DNA from: Dichomitus squalens LYAD-421 SS1
Lineage: Eukaryota; Basidiomycota; Agaricomycetes; Polyporales; Polyporaceae
Length of the DNA: 58,839 bases
Reading direction: 5' to 3'
NCBI RefSeq assembly: GCF_000275845.1
Contig: NW_006766905.1
Span: 22,750 to 81,588, forward strand
Shown here: positions 7,345 through 41,900 of the stretch, piece after piece
Position numbering within the stretch: position 1 is the stretch's first letter
How the letters are laid out: the number at the start of each line of letters is the position of its first letter
Position numbers and translations under genes: made by a program
Notes under the pieces: model-generated
Database searches by the model: none
The model's input: only the letters and a program-made list of their open reading frames with translations
Told to the model about the DNA's origin: nothing

Positions 7345-8092
7345 GTTATGGTATCACTAGTAATTATAGCAGATATATCCAAGCAATCCATGCATATACG
7401 CATCTCTCTAACCTGTGAGAATCAAACCGTCAAAACTCATGCCCTTATCAACTCCAAAGCGGAAGGACTCTTCATTGACAAGTCCTTCACTACCAAGTTT
7501 TAGCTCCCTCTTACTCTGTTATTGACTTCAATTCCAGTCTACAATGTAGATGGCATGCTGAACTTGCAAGGATCTATCACCTATGCTGTCCACACAACTC
7601 TGAACACTGTGGGAGTTGACTATGACTCTCAACTGCTGTTAACTGCCCCATGCAACAAGACTGTCATCCTGGGGTTACCCTGGCTGCAGCAACAGAAGGC
7701 AGTCATCAAATAGGCACAGAACATGTTAGAGATTGCAGCAGCAGACCCAGAACCACCTATTAAGAGTCTGTGCCTCAATGAAGATGAAGTCCTCTTGGCC
7801 TACATTAGGGGCAAACCCATAACGGGGATCTTTCAAGACAACTTTGATTTACCACAGAACACCGGTACATTATCTCCCACAACCAAGCACCTCTCTCTCT
7901 CAACCGTATCTCACACTGGAAATTCCCCCAATGGAGGACCTTCCACTCTCACAGGGGCTCTGCTTCGATCAGAGCCAAAATGAACCCATTATAGGAAATG
8001 GCCCGCAAGTCAGCAACTCTGGACAAGATGCAGGATCTGGATGTTATGATTCCAGGTTACCTCTTCAAAAAAATCTTTGAGAAGAAGGCAGC
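7345..8092 (+). pseudogene. Ty3-3 fragment: protease and start of pol
   Basis: The plus-strand frames encode SLTCENQTVKTHALINS, PVYNVDGMLNLQGSIT, ILGLPWLQQQKAVIK and LCLNEDEVLLAYIRG. The same order is found on the minus strand at 30509-31300. In the better copy the protease core reads ALIDSG; here it is ALINSK, so the catalytic Asp and the Gly are lost. Several stops break the frame. The fragment ends at DKMQDLDVMIPGYL, just before the palm domain, where LTR-C (8093) cuts it. It serves as an uninterrupted reference for the TIR-1 insertion site in the other Ty3-3 copy. Confidence 0.75.
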
Positions 8093-8808: not shown

Positions 8809-9170
8809 TCCTGTTTCTAAGCACAATTGTCCTGATTGTCCATCTCTATACCCTCCTCCATAGTTTCTGATAGCAAACAGATTTGTGGGGAAATATGAAA
8901 TCCCACATTGATTCTAGGGTGGTTTGCAGGGAGCTAGCAGTTGGCCGCCAGGTAGTAGTAGCATGGCAATGGAGAGGAAGGTCGGCTTGGAGAAAGGGGG
9001 TCGGCTGGAGTGGAAGGGTTGAGAGTTGTCATTGTTAGGGCTCTTACATGTGACTGGGGGCATAGTGTCAGGTAAGGAGCTGTGCAACTGTAGGAAGCCG
9101 TCTGTCACGGTGACTAGACATGTAGACCCGGGTTGATGTTTGGTGACAACTCTGTAGGTGAGTGGCAAAG
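8809..9170. other. Retroelement leader plus CpG-decayed copy of the Ty3-2 accessory region
   Basis: The first about 70 bp resemble 1590-1670 (LTR-C leader). The last part (9125-9169) aligns without gaps with 10978-11022, just after the stop of the plus-strand accessory gene of Ty3-2. In that alignment six of seven CG in the 10978 copy are TG here. So LTR-B at 9171 probably sits in an older copy of its own family. No gene is intact. Confidence 0.5.
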
Positions 9171-9763
9171 TGTTAAGACTGTGCCACCGGAGTTCCGGAG
9201 TTCCAGGGATCAGAGTCAGGACTGGGCAGACATGGGGAGAGGACTTCGGTGAAGCTATTGGCAACGCCCTGAGGATCTCGAGGGTGTCCTCGATTATGAA
9301 GTTGGAGGTCAGACGGAGGACGGAGCAGAGAGCGGACAAAGAACGGACGGAGACGGGAAAAATAGATTGCAGTAAGGTAACAGAGAGCATAGCAGACAGG
9401 GAGTGAGGTAATGAGATATCCGAACTGAGGAACACTGTACTAAGTCCAGGGGTTTATAACTGTGAAGCCGGTGTCCCTTAAGTCTGAATTGGAGATATCG
9501 GAGGAGGAGGTCTGACCAGAGTTGGCGGAACACCGACACTAAGTGGAGCTGTGATGTAAGTGGCATTAGACACTGATATGGAAAAACGGACATTCCAGCG
9601 GAGGCGGAGCAGACACTCAGAAAACCACATGGCCCCCATCGGAGACCGGAAAGGGGATGAAAACTAGCACATAAGTAACTACTTGTAAGCAAGTCCGGAG
9701 GTTCGACAGAGTTAGTGTGCTGTCTGACGGAGTTCCGGAGGGACTTAGGCATGGGGTGTAACA
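9171..9763 (-). mobile_element. LTR-B, 3' LTR of Ty3-2 (593 bp)
   Basis: Read on the minus strand it begins TGTTACACCCCATGCC and ends GTCTTAACA. It is homologous to 16983-17407 and to 29302-29455. It lies downstream of the minus-strand Ty3-2 coding region and is preceded, in that orientation, by a polypurine tract, which makes it the 3' LTR. Confidence 0.8.
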
Positions 9764-16982: not shown

Positions 16983-17407
16983 TGTTAGAGCTGGGCCACC
17001 AGAGATCGGAGTCGGGACCAGGTGGACACAGGGGGAGGACTTCGGTGAAGTTATTAGCAACGCCCTGAGGATCCCGAGGGTGTCCTCAATTTCGGAGTGG
17101 GAGGTTGGACAGAGAGCAGACGGAGAATGGACGGAGAACGGACGGAGACGGAAGGAATAGATTGCAGTAAGATAACAGCGAGCGTAACAGACAGGGAGTG
17201 TGGTAACAAGATATCCAAACTGAGGAATGCCGTACTAAGTCCAGAGGTTTATATACTACGAAGCCGGTGTCCCTTAAGTCCGAATCAGAGATATCGGAGG
17301 AGGAGGTCCTACTGGAGTTGGCAGAACACCGAAGCTAGGTGGAGTTGTGATGTAAGTGGTGTCAGGCACTGATATGGAAAAACGGACATTCCAGCAGAGA
17401 TAGAGCG
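16983..17407 (-). mobile_element. LTR-B, 5' LTR of Ty3-2, cut by TIR-1 copy A
   Basis: Homologous to 9171-9600 (GAGGACTTCGGTGAAG, CAACGCCCTGAGGATC, GATATGGAAAAACGGACATTCC). It stops at GATAGAGCG, where TIR-1 begins. The missing upstream part of the same LTR is found at 29302-29455 next to the other TIR-1 copy. Joining the two gives a gap-free match to the intact LTR-B. Confidence 0.8.
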
Positions 17408-19066
17408 CATCTGTAAAAACCACCTTTGCGAATTACACCTATTCAGCACAAATTAGCTCTTAATAGACACAGTAGTTGAATAGTGAAAAATAGTGCAAAA
17501 TCGAGAGGTCCCCAAAAATAATTGCACTATTTTGCACTATCAGTGCAAATTCGTGCAAAATAGCATTATAGTAGACGGAAATAGTGCTACAGTAGACGTT
17601 GATAGTAGTGGATAGAGTGGGTCCATAATTTTTGACTAGTGTAGAAATGCTTAATATGACCTCAAAACCATCTGTTTATAAGCCTCAGATGCATTTAAAG
17701 TGCTGGAAAAATATGTCAAAAAAACTTTCTCAGCCAGTCTTGAACCCTCAACCTCACCTTTATATGACACTTGTTCCGAGGTGGTGCTCTATACCACTGC
17801 ACCACCAGAGATTATATAAACCCTCTTCACAAGTACTATATATATTCATTTCTGCTAGACTTAGACAAAGTGGTGACACCTCACCTTGAAATTCACCTGC
17901 TGAGGCTTGCANNNNNNNNNNNNNNNNNNNNNNNNNNNNNNNNNNNNNNNNNNNNNNNNNNNNNNNNNNNNNNNNNNNNNNNNNNNNNNNNNNNNNNNNN
18001 NNNNNNNNNNNNNNNNNNNNNNNNNNNNNNNNNNNNNNNNNNNNNNNNNNNNNNNNNNNNNNNNNNNNNNNNNNNNNNNNNNNNNNNNNNNNNNNNNNNN
18101 NNNNNNNNNNNNNNNNNNNNNNNNNNNNNNNNNNNNNNNNNNNNNNNNNNNNNNNNNNNNNNNNNNNNNNNNNNNNNNNNNNNNNNNNNNNNNNNNNNNN
18201 NNNNNNNNNNNNNNNNNNNNNNNNNNNNNNNNNNNNNNNNNNNNNNNNNNNNNNNNNNNNNNNNNNNNNNNNNNNNNNNNNNNNNNNNNNNNNNNNNNNN
18301 NNNNNNNNNNNNNNNNNNNNNNNNNNNNNNNNNNNNNNNNNNNNNNNNNNNNNNNNNNNNNNNNNNNNNNNNNNNNNNNNNNNNNNNNNNNNNNNNNNNN
18401 NNNNNNNNNNNNNNNNNNNNNNNNNNNNNNNNNNNNNNNNNNNNNNNNNNNNNNNNNNNNNNNNNNNNNNNNNNNNNNNNNNNNNNNNNNNNNNNNNNNN
18501 NNNNNNNNNNNNNNNNNNNNNNNNNNNNNNNNNNNNNNNNNNNNNNNNNNNNNNNNNNNNNNNNNNNNNNNNNNNNNNNNNNNNNNNNNNNNNNNNNNNN
18601 NNNNNNNNNNNNATAACAAGTTCCTATGTTGAGTTGTGCCCGTCAAATATAAGTCAGCTATCATGGTGATTTTGCAGCTATAGAGGTGTATAATGCTTGA
18701 GTTGAGAACTATGAGCTATAAATAAAGGATTGTCATCTTATTTGAGTCTCCCCTAAATGAGTAGTGCTAAAATAGCACTAAATAGTACTACAGTAGTGCA
18801 AAATAGTGAAAATTAAAGGACCAAATTTGCAGTAGTGCTATAGTAGTATTATGTTGGCACTACATGGCACTATAGCAAAAGTGATAGTGAAGAGTAGTTA
18901 TAGCTAGCTCAAGTATACTAATTAGTGCTTAGTTGCACTACTAAAGAAGCGTGTCTGAATAGTAGCTCTAATGCAGATATCATCTCTGCTAACACTTGCT
19001 AATATAGATGAGGTTATCTGAATAGTGATAATTAGCGTCAATTCGCAAAGGCTGTTTTTCCAGATG
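17408..19066 (+). mobile_element. TIR-1 element, copy A, containing the assembly gap
   Basis: It begins CATCTGTAAAAACCACC and ends GGCTGTTTTTCCAGATG, TIRs of about 27 bp. It has 959 known bases and 701 N. The known bases match the reverse complement of 29456-30508 almost perfectly: by eye I find one substitution and two single-base indels, the indels within 30 bases of the gap. Left of it is LTR-B, right of it Ty3-3 pol. No transposase frame is visible, so it is non-autonomous, unless the gap hides coding sequence. Confidence 0.8.
17912..18612. other. Assembly gap (701 N)
   Basis: A run of N inside TIR-1 copy A. The corresponding interval of copy B (29908-30004) is only 97 bp, so the gap length does not agree with the copy next door. 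Confidence 0.99.
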
Positions 19067-22066
19067 TACTACTTTTATGGCAACTCCGTTTGGATCAGAG
19101 CAAATATCAACCCGGCCCAGGAAATGGCACACAAGTCGGCAACTCTAGATAAGATGCGGGACCTGGATGACATGATTCCAAGTTACCTGCGCGACTTCAG
19201 AGAAACCTTTGTGAAGAAGGCAGCAGAACAGTTCCCTGAGTCACGCCCCTATGACCATCTGATCGATCTCAAACCAGACTTCATCCCAAGAAACTGCAAG
19301 GCCTACCCACTCTCTCCTAAGGAGGAAACTGCGCTCGACAAGTTCATTGAGGAGAACCTTCGGAAAGGATACATCCGTCACTCCACGTCCCCCATAGTGT
19401 CCCCATTCTTCTTTGTTGGAAAGAAAGATGGCTCTCTACAACCTTGCCAGGATTATCACTACCTGAACGACAAGCTGCAGGGAGCCGCTATCTTTTCAAA
19501 GATGGACCTCCGTTCTGGCTACAACAATGTCAGGATCCAGGATGGAGACCAGTGGAAAGCAGCCTTCAAATGCAAGAAGGGCCTCTTCGAACCCACCATA
19601 ATGTTCTTTGGACTCTGTAACTCGCCGGCAACCTTTTAGGCCATGATGAACGATCTGTTCAAAGACATGATTGACGAAGGTTGGATTGTCATCTACATGG
19701 ACGACATCCTAATCTTTTCAAAGGATGCTGCCACTCACGCGGAATGTACCCGGTGAGTTCTCCAATGTCTCAAGGAAAACGACCTCTTCCTGAAACCCAA
19801 GAAGTGTGTCTTCGATGTCACCGAAGTCGAGTTCTTGGGCCTCATCATCCGGCCCAACATTGTGGCTATGGACCCTGCTAAGCTCGAAGGCATTATCAAC
19901 TGGTCAGCCCCAACAACTGTCAAAGGAGTCTAATCCTTTCTTGGAATTGGCAACTTTTACTGTCGCTTCATATCCCACTACTCCAACCTAGCACGTCCCC
20001 TTCATGATCTTACAAGGAAGGACACACCATAGAGGTGGACTGATATAGAACAGCACACATTTGACACTCTCAAGCAATGCTTTATTAGTGCACCAGTCCT
20101 GCAGATGCCGGATAAGACCAAGCCATTCACCATTGAATCTGATGCCTCTAAGTTTTCCACCAGCACAGTTCTCCATCAAGCAGATATCAACGGGGACATG
20201 CACCCCTGCGGTTACCTCTCCCAATCAGTGGATGCTGCCCAACGGAACTATGAGATCTATAATAGGGAACTACTTGGAATAGTGCGCGCTCTAGAGGAAT
20301 GGTGACACTACCTGGAAGGCAGTCCCTACTCCGTGCTAGTCCTGTCCAACCACATGAACCTGACCTACATCCGTACCACTCAGAAACTCAATCACCATCA
20401 GGCTAGATGGAGTCTGATCCTGTCCCAGTTCGAACTCGAATTGCGTCACATTTCTGGCACTTGTATGGTCCAATCCGACACCTTATCCTGTCTGCAACAT
20501 CTGAACCTAGAGATCAATGACAATGATGCTGTTATCCTACTACCTGATCACCTATTCATGTCAAGAATAAACATCAGCCTAGCAGACCGCATTCGTGCAG
20601 TCCTCAAGACAGATCAGGTAGTACTCGACACTCTTGCAGCGGTCAAAACGGGCGGGGTCTTACCAATGAAATCCACGTTGAAGGACTGGATCTTCGAGGA
20701 TGGCCTTGTCTTCTATCAGAAATGCTGCTACATTGCCTTGGATGAGGAACTACGACGGGACATGGTCCAACACTACCATGACCATAAACTCATAGGACAC
20801 CCAGGACAATTTGGCACCCTCGAACTCCTATGGAGGGACTACTGGTGGTCTGGTATGGCATCGTTTGTCAAGAACTACTGCTTAGGATGCGCCATATGCC
20901 AACAAGCAAACACTAACACTCATCCCATGTCTCCTTCATTGCTACCAATTGCAGCAAAACTGAATGCCCTGCCATTTGAAGTTTCCTCCGTCGACCTCAT
21001 CACTGACCTGCCTCCCTCCACTGACCGTTACGAACAAGTCTTTGACTCAATCATGGTCGTGGCAGACCACGATGCTACAAAGGGGGTAATTCTTATTCCC
21101 TGCACAAAAACGGTCAATGCCCTCAAGACAGCTAGACTCTACCACGACTTCGTAACCAAACACTTTGGAGTACCGTCACAAATCATCTCTGATCGTGGTC
21201 CTCAATTCCCCTCCAAGGTCTTTCAGGAAATCACACTCCTATCGGGCACTCAGTCGTCTATGAGCACCGCCTACCACCCTCAGACCGACGGAGGCACAGA
21301 TCGCATGAACCAAGTAGTCGAAGCCTACCTCCGGAAGTACTGCACAGACAAACCAGACAAGTGGACTGAACACCTGACCGACCTAGAGTTTGCACATAAT
21401 CAGCGAACTGCGCAAGGACGTAATGCCTCGCCCTTCTTTCTCATGATGGGCTACAATCCCCATGCCATACCCACGGTAACCCTGCCAACAAATGTACCCT
21501 CCGTGGAGGAATGGCTCTCCAACCTTCAGAAGGCTCGGGCAGAAGCCTGAGCCGCCCATGAACTTGCATGCTAGCATATGGCCGAGCGTGTCACCAAAGC
21601 CTTTACCCCTTTCAAGAAAGGCAACTTGGTGTGGCTCGATGCCAAGAACATCAGATTCTTCCAAGTCCCTAAGAAGTTTGCACTGAAGCGTCATGGACCT
21701 CTCAAAATCGTTGAAGTACTCGGACCACTGACCTTCTGGCTAAAACTCCCAGCACAATAGAAGATACACGATGTATTCCACGCCACCCTCTTATCGCCAT
21801 ATCACGAGACCAAAGAACATGGCCCCAACTTCTTTTATCCTCCACCCGATGAAGTCGAGCATGAGGAACAGTGGGAAGTAGAGACCATCGTGGGACGAAA
21901 GAAGCACAGAAGGACATACCGTTATCAAGTCAAATGGAAGGAATATCTACCATCGGAGAACTCGTGGGAACACGAGTCCAACCTGAAGAACACTGCAGAA
22001 CTCCTTGACACCTATAAGAAAGAACACCCCCTACCTCGGAAAGGGGGTAAGAAATGCAAACACTAG
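19067..22066 (+). pseudogene. Ty3-3 pol: reverse transcriptase, RNase H, integrase, chromodomain
   Basis: In order: [14 protein letters not shown] and [19 protein letters not shown] (fingers), an in-frame loss of about 17 codons, [14 protein letters not shown] (motif A Asp kept), IYMDDILIFSKDA (YMDD kept), RNase H ([23 protein letters not shown]), and integrase with VSSVDLITDLP and IISDRGPQF. The third catalytic position reads QTDGGTDRMNQ (Asp where Glu is usual). The end is a chromodomain (YQVKWKEYLPSENSWE) up to TAG 22064-22066. Stops at about 19637, 19756, 19931 and 20303 occur at expected Gln or Arg codons. Its gag and protease are not beside it here but at 30509-32362 in opposite orientation, on the other side of the putative inversion. 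Confidence 0.85.
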
Positions 22067-22096
22067 CCTTCCTAACCTCCTCTTGCTATCCTCACT

Positions 22097-22282
22097 ATGT
22101 CCTCCTACTCTCATTCTACTGCAGCCGTTTGGGCAGCGCCTCACGCCCTGCACCAACTCCTTGTTGAAGTCGCCAACCTTCCCAACGACACATACGACCG
22201 CTGCCTAACTCAGGTCACAAACAACTCCCCCCTGTATAATGCCCTCATCACTATTCGAGGGGCCAATGGTGCCCTCTCCACT
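22097..22282 (+). pseudogene. Truncated coding stretch after Ty3-3 pol, unknown
   Basis: An ATG at 22097 starts a good frame (AVWAAPHALHQLLVEVANLP, YDRCLTQVTNNSPLYNALI). At about 22283 it runs directly into the middle of an RNase H end (QAR-TAG-ALYLLRFDFVITHKPG) of another element. It may be the N-terminus of a small capsid-like or accessory protein. I do not recognise it. Confidence 0.35.
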
Positions 22283-23871
22283 TGCAGGCAGGCACGGTAG
22301 GCCCTGTACCTATTGCGGTTTGACTTCGTCATCACCCACAAGCCTGGTGTCTCTAACAGATATGCAGACACACTGTCAATACGACCAGACTACCAGCATA
22401 GAGATGATGAAGACAACCTGGCTTAAGTCATGCTACATCCTGAGCAGTTCTGTATATTGGCCAGCAGATGAAATCATCTCACTGTTGTACCAGACAAGGC
22501 ACTCCTAAGGCATATTTCAGAGCACCAGAACTTTGAACCAGCGGTGGTGGAGGCCCTGAAGCACGTAAAGAAGCTTAAACCATCCGCACTATGAAATGAC
22601 TTAGTTGATTGAAACATCAAACAGGATCTCCTCTAGTACTGAGGCAAGATCTATATCCCAAATGATCAGGAGCTATGGACTGAGCTGGTATGACTTCATT
22701 ATGACTCTCCCCTTGTAGAACACCTAGGAGTTTGGAAGACGGTAGAGCTGCTGTTGTGCAACTACCATTGGTATGGCATGGCTCAGTTTGTAAAGGACTA
22801 TACGCGGACTTGCAACACTTGCCATCAAGAAAAGACTTCATGTATGAAACCCTATAACCTCTTGTGACCCAATGAGATCCCGGATGGTCTGATGCACGTT
22901 ATGACCACAGGCTTCATCGTCAGACTCTCTAAAGTCACCGTCACTGGAGTGGAGTACAACACCATTTAAGTCACGGCAGACCGGCATAGCAAGATGGTAC
23001 ACTTTGCTATGACCGACGAGGAAGTTGACACTAAAGAAGCAGTATGGAACCTCATCCGTAATCATGTTTGACTGCATGGAGTCCTGTGGAAGATCATCTC
23101 AGACCAAGGACCTCAGTTCTTGAGCAAGCTGTTTTGTGTGTTTCTTAAGGACCTTAGCATCAAAAGTGTGCTATCCACGGCATATCATCCCCAGACCAAT
23201 AGACAGTCCAAACGCTGAAACTAAGAGTTGGAAGCCTACCTCCACATGTTCTGTTCTCTGCAACAAGATGACTGGGTGCAGTGGCTTCTGATTGCAGGGT
23301 TCGCCTTCAACTCATGAGTTCACTTGGCCACTGGGTACTCCTCCTTCTTCCTCATATTTAACTATGATCCAGAGTTTCACATCCCGGTTCTTGACACAGA
23401 AGTGCTGGCTGCAGACCAACAGCAAGAGAAACTGCAAAAGGCACGGTAAGACGCAACAGAGGTATAGGAAGACACAACAGCGGCACTAGGCCTGGTGGCT
23501 GAATAGATGAAGGAGAACTTTAACAAGCACGTTCAAGAGCTGTCAACCATCAAGGCTGGTCAGAAGGTCTGGCTCAACATCTGTAACTGGCATATTACAG
23601 GAATACCACAAAAACTCGTTGATCAACTGGTCAGACTATACATGGTCAAGAAACAGATCACACCCCTAGTATACAAGCTTGCACTCTCCAAGGACATGCA
23701 AATACACTCAGTGTTCCACATCTCTCTCTTCACACCCCATTAGCACAGTAACCTCCCAGGTCATCATCCACTTGAGCCAGCCCATTTTGAAGTGGAGGGG
23801 GAGGAGTACAAGGTCAATGAAGTTCTTGACTCCAGATGTTTCAGCCACTGAAAGAAGCTCCAGTACATCGC
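22283..23871 (+). pseudogene. Decayed Ty3 pol fragment: RNase H end, integrase, chromodomain
   Basis: Starts at the conserved QARWALYLLRFDF position. It continues with YHWYGMAQFVKDYTRTCNTC (integrase zinc region), VTADRHSKMVHFAM, IISDQGPQFLSKLF and STAYHPQTNRQSK, where the catalytic Glu is Lys. Then follow IKAGQKVWLNICNWHITGIP and VFHISLFTPH, and a chromodomain start (FEVEGEEYKVNEVLDSR) cut off by LTR-A at 23872. More than a dozen stops are present. It is a different, older family from Ty3-3 and was joined to it by deletion or nested insertion. Confidence 0.75.
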
Positions 23872-24439
23872 TTGCACAGTTTTCTCGTGCCACGTGACCT
23901 GAGTGTCATGTGTACCAAGGCAGATGCCCACCCTAACCACGGACAACTCGTATTGGGAACTAGAGCAGCCGGATTTGAACCCCAGACCTCGTGAAGGCTG
24001 GGAGTGCCCACCATCATTCACTGGCAGGTGACTGGTGTGTCAGCAGGGGTGCTTACTCATTGGAAGGGGCCTGGACTTAGGACAACTCAGGTATTAGTTG
24101 TAAGGATGTCATAAGGCAGGTCACGGGACGGAACATGAGTCAGTGGGAACTCTGACCAAACGATGGACAATAGATACCTGGTCTGTGCACCCTTGTATTA
24201 GTATAAATAGTAGGGGGTCTGAGGCAGAGAACCTCAGACTTGATCTTCTCGTCAATCACCCATCTCCTCTGTAGCTAGCTAGCAGCCCTACCTCCTCATT
24301 GCCTCTTCTAGTCTAGGAAATACACTTCTTACATCATCTCTTGCTGTGTCACTTGCGGTTGCTTCGCTCCCAGTACCAACCCCTTCACCAGTAAGCTTTG
24401 TCTTTGTTTATCTGGTGGCACAGCTTGTTGGCTGTGACA
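23872..24439 (+). mobile_element. LTR-A, 5' LTR of a Ty3-1 copy
   Basis: Starts TGCACAGTTTTCTCG (one base missing from TGTCACAG) and ends GGCTGTGACA. It is a full-length match to 430-996 with a TATAAATAG box near 24202. Ty3-1 coding sequence follows directly, so this is the 5' LTR. The 3' LTR of this copy is not present because the element is cut at 29301. Confidence 0.8.
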
Positions 24440-25177
24440 TTAGATCAAGTCTCTTACCAATCCCCTCCGTGGAGTGTCTCAACCACTTGCAGACCGGACC
24501 TCTTCTCCCAGGAGTTTTTTGAAATGTTTATCATCCCCTCCCACTATCCTTCCATCCGACCGGAGTTTACCCGTTGTCACTTCAAGAGACATGGTCACCT
24601 CGACATCCAGTCCCAAATTGACTGCACCCTTGCGGACAACACATCAGATCGCCTTTGTCATTGCCGTCAATATTGACATACCCCTATTGTCCCTCATCGC
24701 AAGGCCCTCCCCCCACCTGTACTCTCTTCCCAACCTCTCGACAGACCACTCGCTGCACGTCTCACCATACCCCCACCAGCCTTTGTTCCATCCACTCCTA
24801 CGGTCCCTCTTCAGTACCGCATCTCTGCACCGCCTATCCCCTCCTTCGCACGTCGTGATCCCATTGATCTTCTCGCTATCGTCGGCTCCAAGATCAACGC
24901 TGTCATCAAAAGACTGCAGGCTATCTTTGATCACAGGGATCAGTTGCTCGACATCCCCCACGATCATCGGCTCGCCCTTCAGCACATTGGCGACAGGCTT
25001 GAGTGGATACTCGACAACATCACGGAGAACAGCACCTCGTGGACTTGTAGTCAGCAACAGAACATCGACTGGTTCTGTAAGGAACTTGGAGAGGTCAAGT
25101 TCAGTGGACTTGGACAGAACTTCGAACATGTTCTAAAAGCTCTAGTGGAGTTAGAACAGTTTGGGTACTTGGATTGA
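24440..25177 (+). CDS. ORF upstream of gag in Ty3-1, one premature stop
   Basis: One frame runs from the LTR edge to TGA 25175-25177, broken only by TGA at 24674-24676. After a Pro-rich stretch it contains RRDPIDLLAIVGSKINAVIK, HRLALQHIGDRLEWILDNI and WFCKELGEVKFSGLGQNFEH, probably helical. It lies 39 bp before the gag ATG. Either it is a separate small protein or the first part of a gag precursor. I do not recognise the domain. The start codon is uncertain (an in-frame ATG lies at 24398 inside the LTR). Confidence 0.5.
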
Positions 25178-25216
25178 ATCATCGTTTAGTTTTGTATCAG
25201 GCATAATTTTATACCA

Positions 25217-28200
25217 ATGGCCTCAGGCCCACATTACGCCCCTCTGGCAGAGGATGACTTTGAGTCAGATGACCCGGGTTCACACACCCACCCGGCTCCA
25301 TCACAGGCACACACCCGCCCAGCTTCACCCACTGCCACGCTTCAAGCATACCTGGAAATTCAATGGATCTATGCTGGTGTTGAGTATGACTCGTTCGAAA
25401 ACGCTATCTGTGCCTCGGCAAATAGTTTAGGCATCACCAACCAAGCCTACGTCGATTGGACCATCTCCGTGACAAGGGACATCACCCGGCGCGAAGTAGT
25501 TAACGTTTACAATGTCCTCAGCAATAAGGTATATGAACATCGGAACGACTTCCTCAAGGAGTGTGACACCACCCACGCCACCTTCAGACAGATGGACAGC
25601 TCAATGACAGGACTTCACACCAAGGCTGACACTGCCGGAAACCTTGCACTCAAAGCCGTCGAAGAGAACAAGCAGTTGAAGGCAGAAATCATCACTGTCA
25701 AAGCAGACCTGGACATGCTCAATCACAACAACATGGAACTCGTCAAATGGTACAAGGAACTCACAGCCAAGTTTATGCAATTGGAACAAGACCTGTCAAA
25801 CTGCACCATGTTTGGTATCACTACCGCTCCAGCCCCTGTCGTATCACAGGCTTCACGTATCAAAGCCTCAGAATCACCCAAGTACAAAGGCAACAAGGGT
25901 TCAGAAGTCACTCTCGAGCAATGTTTACAGAAGATGGGCCTCTGGTTCCGCATTCAGAACATCACTACGGACGACGACAAAATCACCTTGGCACTTACGT
26001 ACCTGGAAGGTGGCGTGCATGACTACATCGAGGACTACATCGAAACAGCAGCAAGCGGTGAATCCCTTGGAACCTGGACTGACTTCGTCAATCGACTCAA
26101 GGCAGGCTATCGTCAACTGGCTCCGGAGAAGACGGCACAAACATCCCTCAAAGAGTGGTGCTCGAAGACGCACACCACCGTTATTCAGTTTGCCGAGAAC
26201 TTCGGCCGCTATGCCTCAAAGTCAGGTTATGCCGATGTAGAGCTCATCCATCGCATCGACAACCAAGTTGGCATGAACTCGCAAATTCTGACAGTCATGA
26301 CGGCAATGCAGCAAGTCAACCTGATGCTGATTCCAACGAAATGGGAACACTATCTGGATTGGGTACTCAAGCTGGAAATGGAAACTCGTGGAAATCAGGC
26401 CAAGTTGTCTTTGCAGCAGCACACAACTAGTCGCCCTCTGCAGAACCCCAATGCCATGGACGTTGACACAAAGAAACTGTCCAAGGAACAGCTCGAATGG
26501 CTCGACAAGAAGCTCTGATTCCGCTGTGGCAAGCACAAGTTTACAACTGGCCAGAAGTGTCACAATCCTCAGTACACGGGTTACTATGAGCTTCCGGACA
26601 TGAATAAACAGCTGGCCGCTCCTATCAAGGTACACACTATGGACATGCCCAAAGAAGACAAGTGGGAGTACATCCATCAAGCCCTCGAGGAGTTTGAGAC
26701 CGCTAAGGAAAAAGGCAAAGGCAAGGCACCGGAAACTGAGACCGCTGCACGCATCGTCGAGTTCAAAGAACCTGGATGGGTACTTTGAAGACTGACCAAA
26801 GTATCCAACTCTGTAATCATAGAGTAGACCCAGAGGACTCTTTTTATTCCGCGTTCGAATGTTATGTATCTCGCATCAGCTCGTCGCCCGCAAAATTCGT
26901 TCAATCTAAAAGTTTCCCTCACTCAAGGTACGCATGAAGTTCAGTCAGAAGCCCTGCTCGATTCAGGAGCCTATTCTTGCTTTATCCACCACCAGTTTGT
27001 TCAAGAACATGGACTCACCCTACGACGCCACTCTCGTGAAGTGCGAGTTTTCAATGCAGACACCACCGAGAATAAGAAGGGGTTAATCACACATTACGTC
27101 CGTTGTTTACTCCGTATTAGAGATCACCTTGCTTGGCAGTCATTCCTTGTCCCAGACATTGGGTGGCAAGACATTATCATTGGCATGGTGTTTCTATGTG
27201 AACATAACCCTGAACTCGATTGGAATGCAGGGAACATTGACTTTACATGCTGCCCCTCAACATGCACCTGGCACACAGTGCAGGATGAAGAACTATGGAG
27301 TTTGCAACTTCCCCGAGTGGAAGATGTTGCGCAAGATCAGTACGGTGACTCTGGCCCTGAATCCTGGGAGAACACCGATCAGTTTATTCATTGGGTGAAC
27401 TTCTCAGATGACCCGAGTGCGCCTTAAATGCGAGCCAGGTTAGAAGAGAAAAAGGACACCAACCCTGCAACGAAAGGCGAACAGGATCGCGAATACTGGT
27501 CAAACCATGTATCTGAGCAGTACTGGAAGTATGGCAACGTCTTTTCCAAGAAAGCCTCAGAAAGAATGCCAACACGGAAGCCATATGATCATGCAGTCGA
27601 ACTAGTCCCTGGAGCCTCACTCCCCAAGCCGGCCAAATTGTACCCGCTCAACCTCGATGAACGGAACTCGCTTGAAGCTTGGATCACGGAGCAAGAAGAT
27701 AAAGGCTACATCCGCACGTCCAAGAGTCCTACTGCTGCCCCAGTCTTCTTTGTCCGTAAGAAAGATGGGAGTTTACGCTTGGTCCAGGACTATCGTGCAC
27801 TGAACACGGTCACAAAGACGGACAAGTTCCCGATCTCCCAGATCTCAGACCTTGTGGATAGGCCTTCACATGCATCGATCTTCACCTCACTCGATCTAAG
27901 GTGGGACTACAACAATGTTCGCATTCGCGAAGGAGATGAAGAGAAAGCCGCATTTATCACTCACAAAGGACTGTATGAACCAACAGTTATGACCTTCAGC
28001 CTATGCAATGCACCCAGCTTGTTCCAAGCAATGATGAATGAGGTCCTAAAGGAAGAAATTGCGACCAGACATGTTGTGGTCTATATCGACGACATTCTCA
28101 TCTTCACTGATGACCTCACTCTGCACTACCAACTAGTAGAACGGGTCCTGAAGAAGCTATGTGACAATGACCTCTTTATCAAGCCTGAAAAGTGCAAGTT

Positions 28201-28293
28201 TGAACAGCCCTCGGTTCACTTCCTCGGACTTGTTGTGTCAAAAGATTCCATCTCTATGGACAAGTCTAAGGTGCAAGGTGTCAAGGAATGGCC
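25217..28293 (+). pseudogene. Ty3-1 gag-protease-reverse transcriptase, one frame with four stops
   Basis: From ATG 25217 a single frame covers gag (coiled coil near residues 85-190; SPKYKGNKGSEVTLEQCLQ; GTWTDFVNRLKAGY), the knuckle-like FRCGKHKFTTGQKCHN, protease (EALLDSGAYSCFIHHQF, Asp-Ser-Gly intact) and reverse transcriptase (VRKKDGSLRLVQDYRALN, FTSLDLRWDYNNV, VVVYIDDILIFTDD). All polymerase aspartates are intact. It is broken only by TGA 26516, TGA 26786, TAG 26825 and TAA 27425, each one C-to-T step from CGA, CAG or CAA. Gag and pol in one frame suggests a single polyprotein. The reading is cut at 28293 by solo LTR-E. It is the least decayed retroelement here. Confidence 0.85.
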
Positions 28294-28665
28294 TGTTGAA
28301 CCCGAGGGGCAAAAGCCTCTCCCATGAGTGGCAACGACAGCGGATAGCCTGCAACTCACTCACCTAGAAGGGTTGGTTGGTTGTAAGAGGCTTGTAAGAG
28401 CGATGAGAGAAGATGTTTGAGTGAAGTGAACTGTAGATTGGGGGTACAGGAGTCCCCTATATATCCTACTGTACATCTGTGGCTGCGTAGTACTATACAG
28501 TACCTTCCCAGGATGCACAGTTGCACAGAGAAGCAGTGCGTATACAGCAAAGCTGTGTGTGTACCACATGAGTAGTACAGCCTCGGTTGCAGTAACCAGC
28601 TGTGCCGTTCCATATCTTGTGACGGCTGTGTTAGGCAAGCTGTGTAAACCAGTGCCTGTTCAACA
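28294..28665 (-). mobile_element. Solo LTR-E with 5-bp target duplication
   Basis: A 372-bp sequence with TGTTGAAC at the left end and GTTCAACA at the right end, a perfect 8-bp inverted repeat. It is flanked by the direct repeat TGGCC (28289-28293, 28666-28670). A TATATAGGGGA promoter-like box on the minus strand suggests minus orientation. It interrupts Ty3-1 between reverse transcriptase and RNase H. I find no second copy in the window. Confidence 0.85.
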
Positions 28666-28670
28666 TGGCC

Positions 28671-29301
28671 TCTCCGACCAAAGTCAAACATGTTCAAGCT
28701 TTCCTCAGATTAGCCAACTTCTATTAATGTTTCATTAAGAACTTTGCCAAGATTGCATGACCGCTCACAAAGTTCACATGCAAGGACATCCAGTGACAAT
28801 AAGGAGAAGAACAAGAGCAGGCCTTTGAAGGACTCAAAACCCACATTTACGACAGCTCCAATTCTTCAGATCCCGAACGACACGGCCCTGTACAGGCTAG
28901 AGACAGACTCATCCGACTTCACAACAGGGGCAGTTTCGGAACAACTTGGAGAAGATAAACTATGGCATCCGGTCGCCTTCTACTCCAAGTCCCTAAATGT
29001 TCATGAGCGCAACTACGAGACCTATGACAAAGAGCTTCTAGCCATTATCCAAGCCTTGGAGGAACATCGACACTACCTGGAAGGACACCCCGAACTGATT
29101 GAAATCTGGTCAGACCACCTCAATCTCACCTACTTCCGGCAAGCACAGAAGCGCACATGCCGAGAAGCCCGATGGAGTTTATTCATGTCTCGCTTCAACT
29201 TTTTTCTGAAACATCGCCCTGGGAAAATAATGCAACCAGCCGGCCCTCTGTCCAGGAGGCCAGATTATAAAGAGGTGGTAAGCAGTGATAACATCGCACA
29301 G
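28671..29301 (+). pseudogene. Ty3-1 RNase H, truncated
   Basis: Continuation of the frame interrupted by LTR-E: PTKVKHVQAFLRLANFY, then after a frameshift ILQIPNDTALYRLETDSSDF, VHERNYETYDKELLAI, HYLEGHPELIEIWSDHLNL and REARWSLFMSRFNFFLKHRP up to GPLSRRPDYKE. The catalytic Asp and Glu of RNase H are recognisable. The integrase is missing because LTR-B starts at 29302. Confidence 0.8.
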
Positions 29302-29455
29302 TGTTACACCCTATGCCAAAGATCCTCCGGAACTCCGTCGGACACCGCGCTAACTCCGCCGGACCTCCGGACTTGCTTACGAATAGTTACTTACATACCG
29401 GTTTCTATCTCCTTTCCGGTCTCCAATGGTGGCCATGTGTATTTCCCAGCATCCG
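29302..29455 (+). mobile_element. LTR-B, first 154 bp, cut by TIR-1 copy B
   Basis: Starts TGTTACACCCTATGCCAAAG and matches the minus-strand reading of 9763-9615 (CTCCGGAACTCCGTC, CCGGACTTGCTTAC, CCATGTG). It stops at GCATCCG, where TIR-1 begins. It is the complement of the truncated LTR-B at 16983-17407. Confidence 0.8.
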
Positions 29456-30508
29456 CATCTGGAAAAACAGCCTTTGCGAATTGACGCTAATTATCACTAT
29501 TCAGATAACCTCATCTATATTAGCAAGTGTTAGCAGAGATGATATCTGCATTAGAGCTACTATTCAGACACGCTTCTTTAGTAGTGCAACTAAGCACTAA
29601 TTAGTATACTTGAGCTAGCTATAACTACTCTTCACTATCACTTTTGCTATAGTGCCATGTAGTGCCAACATAATACTACTATAGCACTACTGCAAATTTG
29701 GTCCTTTAATTTTCACTATTTTGCACTACTGTAGTACTATTTAGTGCTATTTTAGCACTACTCATTTAGGGGAGACTCAAATAAGATGACAATCCTTTAT
29801 TTATAGCTCATAGTTCTCAACTCAAGCATTATACACCTCTATAGCTGCAAAATCACCATGATAGCTGACTTATATTTGAGGGCACAACTCAACATAGAAC
29901 TTGTTATCATGTATAGGATAAGGCTGCCAGCACAGCATTCATATCATAAAGCATACTCTATAGCACACTCCATATTATATACATATTCCCAGACATTACA
30001 CATATGCAAGCCTCAGCAGGTGAATTTCAAGGTGAGGTGTCACCACTTTGTCTAAGTCTAGCAGAAATGAATATATATAGTACTTGTGAAGAGGGTTTAT
30101 ATAATCTCTGGTGGTGCAGTGGTATAGAGCACCACCTCGGAACAAGTGTCATATAAAGGTGAGGTTGAGGGTTCAAGACTGGCTGAGAAAGTTTTTTTGA
30201 CATATTTTTCCAGCACTTTAAATGCATCTGAGGCTTATAAACAGATGGTTTTGAGGTCATATTAAGCATTTCTACACTAGTCAAAAATTATGGACCCACT
30301 CTATCCACTACTATCAACGTCTACTGTAGCACTATTTCCGTCTACTATAATGCTATTTTGCACGAATTTGCACTGATAGTGCAAAATAGTGCAATTATTT
30401 TTGGGGACCTCTCGATTTTGCACTATTTTTCACTATTCAACTACTGTGTCTATTAAGAGCTAATTTGTGCTAAATAGGTGTAATTCGCAAAGGTGGTTTT
30501 TACAGATG
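29456..30508 (-). mobile_element. TIR-1 element, copy B (1053 bp)
   Basis: CATCTGGAAAAACAGCC at the left end and GGTGGTTTTTACAGATG at the right end. It is near-identical to copy A in reverse orientation and includes the 97 bp that copy A lacks. No transposase frame is present. Left neighbour is LTR-B and right neighbour is Ty3-3 protease, the reciprocal of copy A. A tRNA-like unit with a T-run is inside (30110-30198). Confidence 0.85.
30110..30198 (+). other. tRNA-like Pol III unit inside TIR-1
   Basis: GGTGGTGCAGTGGTATAGAGC includes an A-box-like TGGTATAGAGC. GAGGGTTCAAGACT at about 30167-30180 resembles a B box (consensus GGTTCGANNCC). A run of seven T at 30192-30198 would end Pol III transcription. 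The same unit is on the minus strand in copy A (about 17718-17806) and, without the T-run, in copy 1. Transcription is not shown by sequence alone. Confidence 0.4.
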
Positions 30509-32362
30509 TAGGTCCTTCCTCGGGGGGATTTCCAGTGCAAGACTCGGTTGAGGGAGAGAGGTGCTTGATTATGGGGGCAGTATACCGGTGTTCTGTGGCA
30601 GGGGGCGAATCAGAGGTGTCTTGAAAGATCCCCACCACAGGTTCACCCTTGATGTAGGCCAATAGGACTTCATTGTCGTCGAGGGACAGGCTTTCTGCGG
30701 GTTGTTCTTGTAGTTGAAAGGAGTTGCGTTTGGGCGCAGTGCAAACACATAAGGTACTACGTGTTGCAAGCCAGACTATATATATACATGTAGACAAGAC
30801 TCTGAGACAAAATATACAGTACAAGACGAAACAAGACCATCGTGAGCACAATGTGAGCTCAATTACATAATATGAGATTCAACAGTTCTGGCCTTATTTC
30901 TGCGATCTCAACTGTGTTGTGTGCCCAGTCGATGACCGCCTTCTGTTGCTGCAGCCATGGTAACCCCAGGATGACAGTTTCATTGCCCAGGGCAGTTGAC
31001 AGTAGTTAGGAGTCACCGTCAACTCCCGCAGCATTTAGGGTTGTGTGGACAGCATGTGTGATAGATCCTTGTGAGCTCAGTGCACCATCTACGTTGTAGA
31101 CTGGAATTGGAGCCGGTAACAGTGTATTAGGGAGCCGAGACTTGGTGGCAAAGGCCTTGTCAATGAAAAGTCCTCCCACTCCTGAGTCAATGAGGGCATG
31201 GGTTTCAACGGTTTGGTTCTCACAAGTAAGAGAGACAGGTATATACATGGATTGCTTGGATATGTCTGCTACAATTACTGGAGATACTGTGACCAGCAGT
31301 CATCCTAACGTGGAGGTAGGCGACCACTTCAAAAACCCTCCCTTTCCACCAAGGTAACCACCTCCTGTTTCTCCTGTATGGAAAGACCTTGGAACACCCC
31401 ACGAATGTGGTCGATGGAACGTTCGGAGGGGGGACTGGGTTTCTCCTCCTGTGTGTTCAGAGAGCGAATCTTCTGAAAGGTGGGCTTGCTTGTACTCTGC
31501 TTCGGATTGTTTCCTTGGAGAGGGCACTTCTGAGTGATGTGACCCACTTAACAACAGTGGAAGCAAGCCCCCTTACTGGCCAGTAGGGCACGCTCCTCGT
31601 CTGTCAGCTTTCGCAAGCATACTGAATTGGCAGATGTCGAGCCAGTGGGCTTCGAAGGGGCAGATGTTGGCTGGGAAGGCTTGGAGGCCTCTGTGTACTC
31701 CGTGGCTTTACGCCACTGCAAATCCAGCCTAACGGTCAAAGAGTAATATCCCTCTATGTCTGTGAGTAGTGTCTGAGCTGAGAGAATGTTTCAAACAAGT
31801 CTAGAGGATAGTCTGGACAGGAAGTAGTCAGACAGGACTTCTAACTCCTTGACCCCTGAATGCGCTGCTAGAGGTCGGAAGAGGGCAATATAGTCTTTAG
31901 CTAGGCCTGTCTGCTTCAGGGCCTTGAGCTTGGTAATTGAATCCATGACTGGGGAGAGAGGTTCAAAGGCTGCTTTGAAGTCCCTAGCGAAGTCAGTGAA
32001 GGTGCCAAAACCCTTCTCTTCATTGTTTACTACCGTGAAGACATCTTCTTCACATGCCTCTCTCCAAGGGGCAGCGGTTCTCCCCACCATGAACAACAGG
32101 ACAAAGATCACCTTGTCCTCATCGTCTGAATAGGCATCCTTGTTGACACGGAGGTACATCCAGCAGGTGTTCAGAAAGGTGCTTGCTTCGAGACAATCCC
32201 CAGAGAAGTCGGAGGGCTGACGAATCTTCCTTTCGACTACTTTAGGTGGGGGAGCAGTGGTTTCCATAGTGACTAGTGGCTGAGTGGTAATGGGTTTAGT
32301 CTGAGTAGGTGGAGGGGACGCTGTAGACGCAGTGGTTGGCGAGGTTGCTGGGGTCTGGGTTA
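30509..32362 (-). pseudogene. Ty3-3 gag and protease, minus strand
   Basis: From 32362 downward: gag (ERKIRQPSDFSGDCLEAST, FTDFARDFKAAFEPLSPVMD, LKQTGLAKDYIALFRPLA), then a knuckle-like CFHC...VGHITQKCP broken by TAA, then protease (PVSLTCENQTVETHALIDSG, AGVDGDS, ILGLPWLQQQKAV) and the linker SLSLDDNEVLLAYIKGEPVV ending at PEEGPT next to TIR-1. The protease Asp-Ser-Gly is intact. Stops are at 31791 (CGA to TGA like) and elsewhere. A solo LTR (30709-30884) interrupts the linker. LTR-D at 32363 is its 5' LTR. Its pol lies at 19067-22066 on the opposite strand. Confidence 0.8.
30709..30884 (-). mobile_element. Solo LTR-F (176 bp) with 5-bp target duplication
   Basis: It runs from TGTAGTTGAAAGG to GAGATTCAACA on the plus strand (TG...CA ends) and is flanked by GTTCT at 30704-30708 and 30885-30889. 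A TATATATATAGTC box on the minus strand suggests minus orientation. Removing it with one duplication joins AEIRPE to QPAESLSL in one frame. A small LTR of this size is more usual for Ty1/copia-type elements. Confidence 0.8.
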
Positions 32363-32840
32363 TGTTACGGCGAAGCGTGTCAGCACTCAAGGGGTTGTGT
32401 GCAGGTTATGCACAACGAGGACGCAGACTGATGACAGGCTTAGCACACTGGTTCACTGGGGGTCTGGGGGTTCGAGGTCACTAGGGGTCTAGGGAGTGAG
32501 AACACTTGATTGGTACAAGAGGTTAAACTGGGGTGCCCAGTGCAAGACCTGTCCTTATATACTAAAGTACACAGTCACTGACTAATCGGAGAACAATAGT
32601 CACAAGACAATAATGATGGAGAACAATAGCGAATGGGGACAAAGGAGTCACGTGGTGTTGTGGCCACGTAGTACAATGGCGGAAAGAACAATAGCGATGA
32701 GAACAATAGGGATGGGAAGCATAGTGTTGGAACCATGGTAGGTACAAGTGTCCGGGTTGTGCCGTAAGGAGAGAGAATGCATGGTAGAGAGGATACGAGG
32801 AGAAGGGAAAAAGAGATGCCCCCACAGAGTGTTTGTAACA
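32363..32840 (-). mobile_element. LTR-D, 5' LTR of Ty3-3 (478 bp)
   Basis: On the minus strand it begins TGTTACAAACACTC and ends CGCCGTAACA, directly upstream of gag. A TATATAAGGACAGG box is present near 32560 on the minus strand. On its right it breaks an LTR-A at the word AGGACAT. A plus-oriented partial copy is at 33106-33334. Confidence 0.8.
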
Positions 32841-33105
32841 ATGTCCTGTCCTGTGACCTGCCTCATGACAATCTTTTGACTAATACCTGAGTTGTCCTAA
32901 GTCCAGCCCCCTTCCAATGAGTAAGTGCCCCTGCTAACACACCAGTCACCTGCCAGTGAGTGATCATGGGCGCTCCCAGCCTTCACAAGGTCCGGGGTTC
33001 AAATCCGGCTGCTCCGGTTTCCAATACGAGCTGTCTGTGGTTAAGGTGCGCATCTGCCTTAGTGCACATGACCCCCAGGTCACATGGCACGGGAAAACTG
33101 TGACA
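32841..33105 (-). mobile_element. LTR-A fragment, minus orientation
   Basis: The minus strand from 33105 reads TGTCACAGTTTTCCCGTGCC and follows LTR-A for 265 bp to AGGACAT, where LTR-D interrupts it. It is itself inserted in an older LTR-D. Confidence 0.8.
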
Positions 33106-33334
33106 CCTGGTTAGTCAGTGATCATGTACTTTAGTATATAAGGACAGGTCCTGCACTGGGCGCCCCAGTTTGATCTCTTGTACCAATCAGGTGTTCTCAC
33201 TCCCTAGACCCCTGGTGACCTTGAACCTCCAGACACCCAGTCAACCTTGTGTGCTAAGCTTGTCATCAGTCTGCATTCTCATTGCGCATAACCTGCACAC
33301 GACCCCTTGAGTGCTGATATGCTTCGCCGTAACA
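33106..33334 (+). mobile_element. LTR-D, 3' part, plus orientation
   Basis: Matches the minus-strand reading of LTR-D from GGTTAGTCAGTGATCATG through TATATAAGGACAGG to the end CGCCGTAACA. Its 5' half is missing on the left, where LTR-A sits. It is the last recognisable transposon piece before host sequence. Confidence 0.75.
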
Positions 33335-38964: not shown

Positions 38965-41900
38965 TCATGCCCTCCGTCCTCGTCGTTTCTTTCCCAAGCC
39001 CTTCTTCACTGCCGTCTCCCGCTCGCGCATCGTTTCGTGCTCTTCATCCAAAAACCCTACTGTGATGTCGTCGAAACGTTCAGCGTCATCGATGGCCTGC
39101 TTGTCTTCTGGCCCCCAGCCTTGCCACGGCTGTTGGCCTTCATCTTCTTCGATAGGCAAGGGATCGATGTTGGTCGATGGTGTGGAGATGCTAGCAGCCG
39201 AGTCCCCACCGACGGCTCCGACACCAGTGGATGCAGACGCTGAGCGCGAGATGACATCTGCCTCGGTCTCGCCTTCCAGAGAAGGTCCAAAAACGTCCTT
39301 GACGAGGAAATCTTCGTCCTCTTCGTCAAACTCGAGGGGAACGGAGGACGACAGAGCAGCGTCAGGACGCGCGGCCAGCCGCGGAGAGCGCGCCTTGCCA
39401 AATTCACGACGAATCCGACCAATACCTTCAGTCATTCCATCTTGAATGCCTACCGCTACCTGTCGGATGGGGATCGCATTGATGAGCGACTTGGCTCCAG
39501 AACCGGATGTGCCGTTAGGGAGCATGGGGAGAACCGGTGGGGAGGGGTTGGGTGGGTGCAGTTGTGCAGAGAGCGCAGACGCTAGCGGCCCGTCGAACGA
39601 TGAGGGTACGCGGCCCATGCTGATGTCGTGGTGAGGAGAGAGGTCTTGTACGAACGCCTCAGTCTCCTCAGAAGCGAACGCGTTGACCTCAATTGGTTTC
39701 CGCACTTCGATTTTGCTAGAAGGTATGTCAAAGTGATAACTCCGGATGAGGGCGTGGTAGTCCTCGCCCAATGCGTAGAATGAGAATTGATGCGAAAGAT
39801 AGATAAGCCTAGGTGAGACCTTGGGCGATAGCGAGAATGTCGATAATTCCGCGCGGGATAACCAGCTGTATGCGGTATTAGTGCTAGCAGATGGATTCAG
39901 GGGCGGTAACACGTACTCAGATTTAGCAGTACTACCGAATCGTCCGGCGCCGGGTCGCACTTGCCTTAGGCTCTGCTTGACCTCAGGCCATGACCGACCC
40001 CGTGCGAGGGACCAGGTGCTGACTAGATTCTCCCGACCTACGAGCCCAGTGGGTTTATCCATCATCTGGGCCAAGCCTGAGCCTGATGTAGTGCGGGGGC
40101 TCGTGCTCAAGCCAGCCGGAGGCGAAGAGCCCATGTGACGAGCGAAGGTACTCATGCCGGGAAGCGAAATGCTGGTGCCCCCGACAACCGGAATGGAACC
40201 AGGAACGACGGCCTGGTCCACCGCTGCACGCTCTACGAAGATACGATGTAGAGCAAGTGTACCATCATTTGGGTCAAATACGAGCAGGTCCTTGTAGTTA
40301 GTAGGGCGAGTTGGGCGCTGTGCCGGAGAGACAGGATGCCTTGAGAGCCCGCTGGACACGGACGAAGGGGATGATGACGCAGAAAAGTGCACCGTTGCTG
40401 GTGGGAGAAGCGACAGAGGAAGGATCGCCTCGGAGGATCGTAAGAACGTAAACGTGCAAGGAATACTAGCCGACTCTGAAGGCTGCGACTTGAGCCTCAC
40501 GCGCACGAGTGGCGACAGTTCAGTCGACGAGGTGTTCTGTACTACTGTTAGAAACTTAGACATCGCAGCCAGTGGAAAAGTACTCACCAGCTCTCGGCTG
40601 TTGACAACCCTACCTATAAGATGGCTGCTTCCGTCCGGCTTGCCACCAAGCGGGTTCGTCGCAAAGACATGGATGGTCCGCTTGCGTGAACTCATCCCGA
40701 ACCACATCTTGTCATGCGCCCACTCCAAGGACTCGACGACAGCGGACGTGCGTCCTCGTCGGAGTGTGTAAACATGCTGCATCGACTCCAATAGATGCTC
40801 TGGGGTCATTGATGACGACGTTTGGCGGACCTTGGGCGCTGTTGCGTGCTCCTTGCCACTCCTCGACCGAGAGTCCTGCGAAGGGGCATCCGGTGGTGGC
40901 CGCCGCGAAAGGCGAGGTGTCGGACGTAGTCGAAAGGTTCGAACGGCATGTCCGTCCTTCGAACAGAGCGCCAAGCTGGTGCCTTCCGGAGAGAACTTGA
41001 GGCCGCTGAGAGCCTGCGGCCGCGCGAACGTAAATTGGGCGACCGGCTCAGGCTGAGCTGAAGACGACACTTGTAACGGGTAGAGGTCGACCACGATGAC
41101 GTTGCACCCCGACGTAGGCGCGGTCGGGGAAGTTGGCGGAGGGAATGAGCGAGGGGTGACAGTCGCCTGCGGATCAAAACTACCCTCGATGGGCGAGGAC
41201 ACGCGGAGGCTACGCCGTCGACGATCCGCGGCCGTCTGGTACTCATGCGGCGAGGCAGTGGCGGCTGGAGCACTCTTCGAGAAGAACATGCCCAGAGCGT
41301 TTGTGGCTGACCCTCCCGAGGCGGATATGTTCCGCGAGTGGATAGAGGTCTGCTCACCCGAGACTGCAGCGCTGACGCCGGCACGCGCAGCGGAAAACGC
41401 GATGCCGCCGAGGGTCTTCATCCCGCTAAGGACGCTACCACCGATCTTGACGGCGGCATTCCCAAGGTCTGCCTGAGACATACCTAAGCCAAACTTGAGC
41501 GGGGCCTCGGAGGCCGTGATAGGAACACTAGTATGCGCCTGACCCGGGGTGGCCGCGGGTGCGGCATCTTGACGGGAAGGCGGAGAGACGTATGCCAGGA
41601 GGCGATTAGAAAGGGCGTATATCGGTCGTGGCAGCGGTGAGGCACGTAAAGATGGGTAGTGTTGGTCTAAATCTAGAGAGGGTACATCATTGAATGTTGG
41701 CTTCGTTGGTGATGATGTCGATTGTGCTGGCGGGAACGTGAAAGGAACAAGTGATGCTGAAGGGATAATGTACAATGACGCAAATGTACAGCTGGAGATA
41801 ATGTGAAGACTTGGTGGGTTTGATGTACACTGTGGAGGCTAGTTAGCACGGAACGTGAACATGAGACAGCAAGTACGGTACACACGAGGATGATAAATTG

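Follow-up and report, generated by a model that had tools for sequence, protein, structure and literature searches.

Within the window, by which we mean the whole 58,839-nucleotide stretch of Dichomitus squalens DNA analyzed here, the segment between positions 19067 and 29455 lies reversed with respect to the older order inferred from two retroelements, both of which are split at its borders. The borders are occupied by two copies of a small element with terminal inverted repeats (the TIR element), namely copy A (17408 to 19066, plus strand) and copy B (29456 to 30508, minus strand). The halves of the two host elements and the 2-bp flanks of the TIR copies are paired crosswise, the copies lie in opposite orientation, and they are nearly identical. 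We slightly prefer a real inversion of ~10.4 kb at the TIR-element pair, by recombination with homogenization or by insertion of a hybrid element, to an assembly artefact, and we give the real inversion about an even chance. With that degree of confidence we infer that the flip would be a property of the fungus as well as of its assembly, and by what kind of exchange it may have arisen. The window sits in contig 23 (C23; 454,588 bp; other contigs are abbreviated likewise), and the genome searches described below were run on the D. squalens assembly (40.35 Mb, 116 contigs). In agreement with D. squalens or a very close relative as the source, a 957-residue open frame at 38965 to 41838 (minus strand) found its best match in a D. 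squalens protein, with 96% identity along the full length of the query, as opposed to 64% for the runner-up; judged by eye, the two seem to diverge chiefly where the open frame runs on through introns.

Comparison of the window with itself identified an uninterrupted relative of the repeat LTR-B at 9203 to 9763 (plus strand). The left half of the split LTR-B (16999 to 17407, plus strand) matches 9203 to 9603, at 83.8% over 16999 to 17399, and the right half (29302 to 29455, minus strand) matches 9763 to 9620, at 82.6% over 29445 to 29302 on the opposite strand. A genome search with each half yielded at least 15 matches per half with the query excluded, counts that are lower bounds. Both halves were present at 14 places, the first half only at C9:317615 and the second half only at C9:340752. 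In all 14 places with both halves, these were colinear and adjacent on the same strand, in agreement with the proposal of the sequence-only reading that 19067 to 29455 is inverted between the two copies. Judged by coordinates, an exact 2-bp overlap of the halves is implied in seven of the 14 (C48:158679, C54:221244, C13:5471, C26:365809, C23:32053, C13:100233 and C48:144452). The other seven (on C63, C31, C104 and C16, and at C9:356304, C13:110447 and C13:94622) imply 11 more bases between the halves, and these bases fall in an unaligned stretch; such places support colinearity and not the 2-bp overlap. The 5-bp duplication of the LTR-B element itself was considered as a test of order and rejected: CAAAG (9166 to 9170) does not match CTGTG (29297 to 29301), and since the outer LTR-B end does not change between the two orders, this duplication cannot decide between them. 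The mismatch does show that the LTR-B element is no simple intact insertion and has undergone some further rearrangement.

The second host element, Ty3-3, is represented to the right of copy A by its pol part (19067 to 22063, plus strand), in which Pfam recognized fragmented reverse transcriptase, RNase H and integrase domains: reverse transcriptase in 19022 to 19639, and RNase H with the integrase zinc-binding domain in 20306 to 21550, where the integrase core scored below the cut-off. Beyond copy B lies the gag/protease-side part (30509 to 32405, minus strand), with a gag match in 31791 to 32405 that is below the curated Pfam cut-off and a frame at 30453 to 30878 for which Pfam gave no match. 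An uninterrupted relative at 7351 to 8092 (plus strand) was the only one found that runs across the join, and genome searches returned no second Ty3-3 copy across it. When the flanks were compared with this relative one at a time, position 30510 aligned with 7941 and position 19084 with 7958, and the dinucleotides at 30509-30510 and 19067-19068 (TA) overlap in it by exactly 2 bp, an overlap that rests on one relative with 77-78% identity. The halves of Ty3-3 thus join in one relative, as had been proposed. No clear pair of LTRs belonging to Ty3-3 itself was seen in the self-comparison of the window. The further proposal that both restored sites show a 2-bp duplication stands as well: CG agrees with seven of the 14 LTR-B places and TA with the single Ty3-3 relative.

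The TIR element itself is 1053 bp long in copy B, which is continuous and flanked, in the orientation of the element, by TA at the 5′ side and CG at the 3′ side. Copy A consists of 504 and 454 bp of the element around 701 Ns (17912 to 18612), where copy B has 95 bp; it is flanked by CG on the left and TA on the right, and the self-comparison showed no other N run in the window. That the two are near-identical inverted repeats with the borders given above had been noted from the sequence and is correct. A third copy (3878 to 4906, plus strand) is older, being 78-81% identical to A and B; its flanks are cc and aa, and comparison with a relative showed that ~79 bp of host sequence are absent beside it. 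The ends of the element form imperfect inverted repeats over ~42 bp, and a search with the end pattern gave 49 matches in the genome and none with the reversed control. Inside copy B, at 30060 to 30190 on the plus strand, we noticed by eye stretches that we take to be similar to the A-box and B-box of tRNA promoters; ARAGORN called no tRNA there.

We fetched 34 other copies from 35 loci, two of which hold the halves of one copy. This sample does not comprise the whole family, given that at least two further ends (C13:18828 and C17:1510) lie outside it. Both ends are present in 12 of the 34, and the 2-bp flanks are equal in nine of these 12, namely the continuous copies L010, L018, L022, L023 and L032, the gapped copies L014, L019 and L020, and the interrupted copy L015/L016. 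The family thus makes 2-bp target duplications, and with terminal inverted repeats and a duplication of fixed length, the element has the features of a cut-and-paste (TIR) DNA transposon, putatively a non-autonomous one. In L015/L016 (C78:78216-87573), the copy is split by ~8.3 kb; because its outer flanks match (gt/gt), something was probably inserted into it later.

The flanks of A (CG/TA) and of B (TA/CG) match only crosswise. Each crosswise match has a probability of ~1/16 by chance, and this evidence is additional to that of the host elements. Exchange or loss of flanks at the TIR element is not unique to A and B, because three continuous copies, L009 (ct/ta), L011 (tg/ct) and L013 (tt/ga), also have unequal flanks. 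In L009 (C54:209500-214500), a gag-side part whose end corresponds to 25243 is joined to an LTR part of like orientation whose start corresponds to 24280. The two parts belong to one retrotransposon family, and the layout is as expected if a deletion had occurred between two direct copies. Comparison with the window and the fetched loci revealed no flank partners for L011 and L013.

Copies A and B are equal at 955 of 956 aligned positions. The sole mismatch is at element position 37, which is C in A and T in B, and within the 30 letters that follow its gap, copy A is longer by two separate bases. For comparison, 14 full or nearly full copies were aligned in all 91 pairs, with the third copy of the window and the truncated copies left out. 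The runner-up to the A-B pair agreed at 1033 of 1057 positions (97.7%), and the lowest pair at 91.2%. The A-B pair was also the closest over the full length in alignments of element halves, which included more copies, although near-identity becomes less exceptional over short stretches: L012 and L021 show three differences in 453 positions of the 3′ half, and several end pieces of 114 bp are identical between copies. In 15 columns, A and B share a letter that no other copy has, a number that falls to 11 in the half alignments; the other 12 copies have 6 to 29 private columns each. The near-identity together with the private columns points to late homogenization or doubling, and the common ancestor of A and B would have been an ordinary aged copy. 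Position 37 is polymorphic in the family, with C in 13 other copies, T in eight and G in one, and a minor base shared by at least three of the 12 copies occurs at 59 of 1084 columns. As an explanation of the difference at this position, a remnant on the border of a conversion tract seems more fitting than a subsequent random mutation, one site being thin evidence.

The state of the assembly at the TIR element has a direct bearing on these observations. The repeat is left unresolved at the breakpoint, where A holds its 701 Ns, and in 17 of the 34 other fetched copies no more than 7 bp separate the end of the match from an N run or a contig end (the latter in L026 and L043). With the three copies of the window added, of which only A contains Ns, 18 of 37 are broken. 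The contig ends extend 114 to 923 bp into the element in the broken copies. The sequences bordering the N run overlap without a mismatch over 192 bases in L014 (C14:22500-28500; 543 Ns) and over 392 bases in L019 (C48:20500-26500; 376 Ns). Because the sides agree, the N runs in these two copies are spurious, and the contig ends there keep to the copy from which they come. The flank-to-flank spans are 1791 bp in L014, 1825 bp in L019, 1843 bp in L020 and 1659 bp in A, as compared with ~1053 bp in continuous copies. The idea that the 701 Ns of A stand for extra sequence was judged unlikely in view of the spurious runs in L014 and L019. The gap of A looks ordinary, and the duplications show the three comparable gapped joins to be right. 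Taken together, the spans and duplications favor the join in A mildly, which is no proof, since long-range links would be compatible with the inner segment in either orientation.

One could envision several explanations for the arrangement. If the inversion is real, a ~1,053-bp TIR element with 2-bp target duplications would have resided in an LTR-B repeat at a CG site, and a near-identical element would have resided in a Ty3-type element at a TA site, in the opposite orientation and ~10.4 kb away. An exchange at both copies would then have inverted the intervening 10.4 kb, and each copy would have ended up between a half of LTR-B and a half of the Ty3-type element. That A and B are almost identical could be attributed to gene conversion during the exchange, which we regard as somewhat more likely, or to descent from one copy by hybrid-element insertion. 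In support of a real inversion, A is joined in the same manner as the gapped copies L014, L019 and L020, whose flanks match; against it stand the gap in A, the breaks in half of the other fetched copies, the dependence of the Ty3-3 join on one relative, and the short stretches in which other pairs of copies are also close. The recombination of near-identical repeats by itself, which the sequence-only reading had offered as the classic cause, accounts for the change from the older order but not for the fact that A and B are far closer than any other pair of full copies. Independently inserted copies would normally keep more differences, so that homogenization or aberrant transposition must be added. 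A one-step alternative is that a hybrid element, made of the ends of one copy on two sister chromatids, inserted 10 kb away and inverted the DNA between; a small basidiomycete TIR element would thereby have generated two identical inverted copies, each carrying an old 2-bp duplication and a new one. The copies do show the required likeness, at 955 of 956 positions and with the private variants in common, apart from the two extra bases at the edge of the gap in A and with the middle of A consisting of Ns; and the published framework, in the part of PMC2775673 considered here, predicts identical copies from this route and chimeric ones from ectopic recombination. However, position 37 differs and is a site that is polymorphic in the family, and recombination with full homogenization has the same outcome. 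We consider this route unlikely, in its general form and for this element in particular.

Mis-phasing of inverted repeats is a familiar fault of draft assemblies when the repeats are near-identical and ~1 kb long and one copy carries a gap, as at A and B, where it is a candidate explanation. According to this explanation, the older order would still exist in the fungus, the internal reads shared by the two copies would have been placed in B, B would have been joined to the wrong exit, and A would have been left as a gap. The Ns in A and their absence from B, the breakage inside the element of 17 of the 34 other copies, and the near-identity of A and B are all consistent with it, as are L014 and L019, whose spurious Ns stand between overlapping sides and indicate that the assembly is unreliable here. 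In addition, B is not phasable from position 38 on, because the letters present in A there match those of B. Nevertheless, an artefact still requires two near-identical insertions 10 kb apart, when other full copies differ at a minimum of 24 of 1057 positions, and the other three gap-spanning joins with both ends present have matching flanks. We therefore hold an artefact to be somewhat short of an even chance. The earlier statement that either recombination or a scaffold error could give this picture stands in both parts, with the artefact reading strengthened by the gap and by the broken copies. Since all four junctions between flank and element are the same in both orders, no short sequence decides between them, and junction sequences were ruled out by this reasoning as a test of order. 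It is also conceivable that no reciprocal inversion took place, and that unrelated rearrangements in an old cluster of nested transposons left four mismatched halves by coincidence. The region is indeed nested and decayed, and the mismatched flanks of L009, L011 and L013 have no partner identified; but both hosts are split reciprocally at the same two copies, with 2-bp overlaps, and we regard such a coincidence as highly improbable. The weights given to the real inversion, the artefact and the coincidence are judgements and were not computed, and that of hybrid-element insertion is contained in that of the real inversion.

Similar arrangements have been described in other organisms. According to the part of PMC2775673 considered here, transposon copies in opposite orientation with exchanged duplications mark a transposon-mediated inversion; ectopic recombination would leave chimeric copies, and insertion of a hybrid element identical ones. 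The Drosophila buzzatii inversion 2z3, with Galileo copies in opposite orientation at both breakpoints and exchanged target-site duplications, resembles the present case most directly. Unlike A and B, in which chimerism is not visible at 955/956, the Galileo copies of 2z3 are chimeric; non-inverted chromosomes were sequenced there, whereas the older order here is derived from related elements (LTR-B at 14 places, Ty3-3 at one); and the element family is different, with a duplication of 7 bp in Galileo as opposed to 2 bp here. In maize, ectopic recombination is set against reversed-ends transposition in the portion of PMC8225341 considered here. The alternative (reversed-ends) transposition of Ac/fAc likewise leaves DNA transposon ends at both inversion breakpoints, but it is the facing termini of directly oriented elements that react there, creating new 8-bp duplications, and such a layout was not found in the window. 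Rearrangements by a DNA transposon in a fungus are also exemplified by the non-standard transposition of impala in Fusarium, which is mentioned in the same source. The phenomenon has, judging from these two sources, already been described in flies and maize, and the present case is at most another instance of a Galileo-type exchange of duplications, if not an artefact. Among the matches listed in the literature search, no title reported this locus or the TIR element.

If real, the inversion would be a case, resolved to its breakpoints, in which part of a mushroom genome was turned around by a small DNA transposon, and the near-identity of its copies would bear on the choice between ectopic recombination and aberrant transposition. 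If an artefact, it serves as a warning: half of the fetched copies (17/34) coincide with assembly breaks, so that rearrangements which this assembly shows at the element call for confirmation by spanning reads. Host genes should not be affected, because the segment consists of retrotransposon remains.

Several minor features of the window were also recorded. Rfam (window 1 to 34000) and tRNA scans gave nothing bearing on the question of inversion; ARAGORN reported a tRNA-Cys-like sequence at 1713 to 1786, in a transposon-rich stretch, that may belong to a tRNA-derived repeat. An inverted pair of 224 bp with 89.7% identity (32363-32585 and 33111-33334) surrounds an LTR fragment at 32841 to 33106. 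Finally, the LTR at 23875 to 24439 has, by eye, a pol-like end on its left (22110 to 24439) and a gag/pol part on its right (24439 to 29301), an arrangement suggestive of one LTR common to two related elements.
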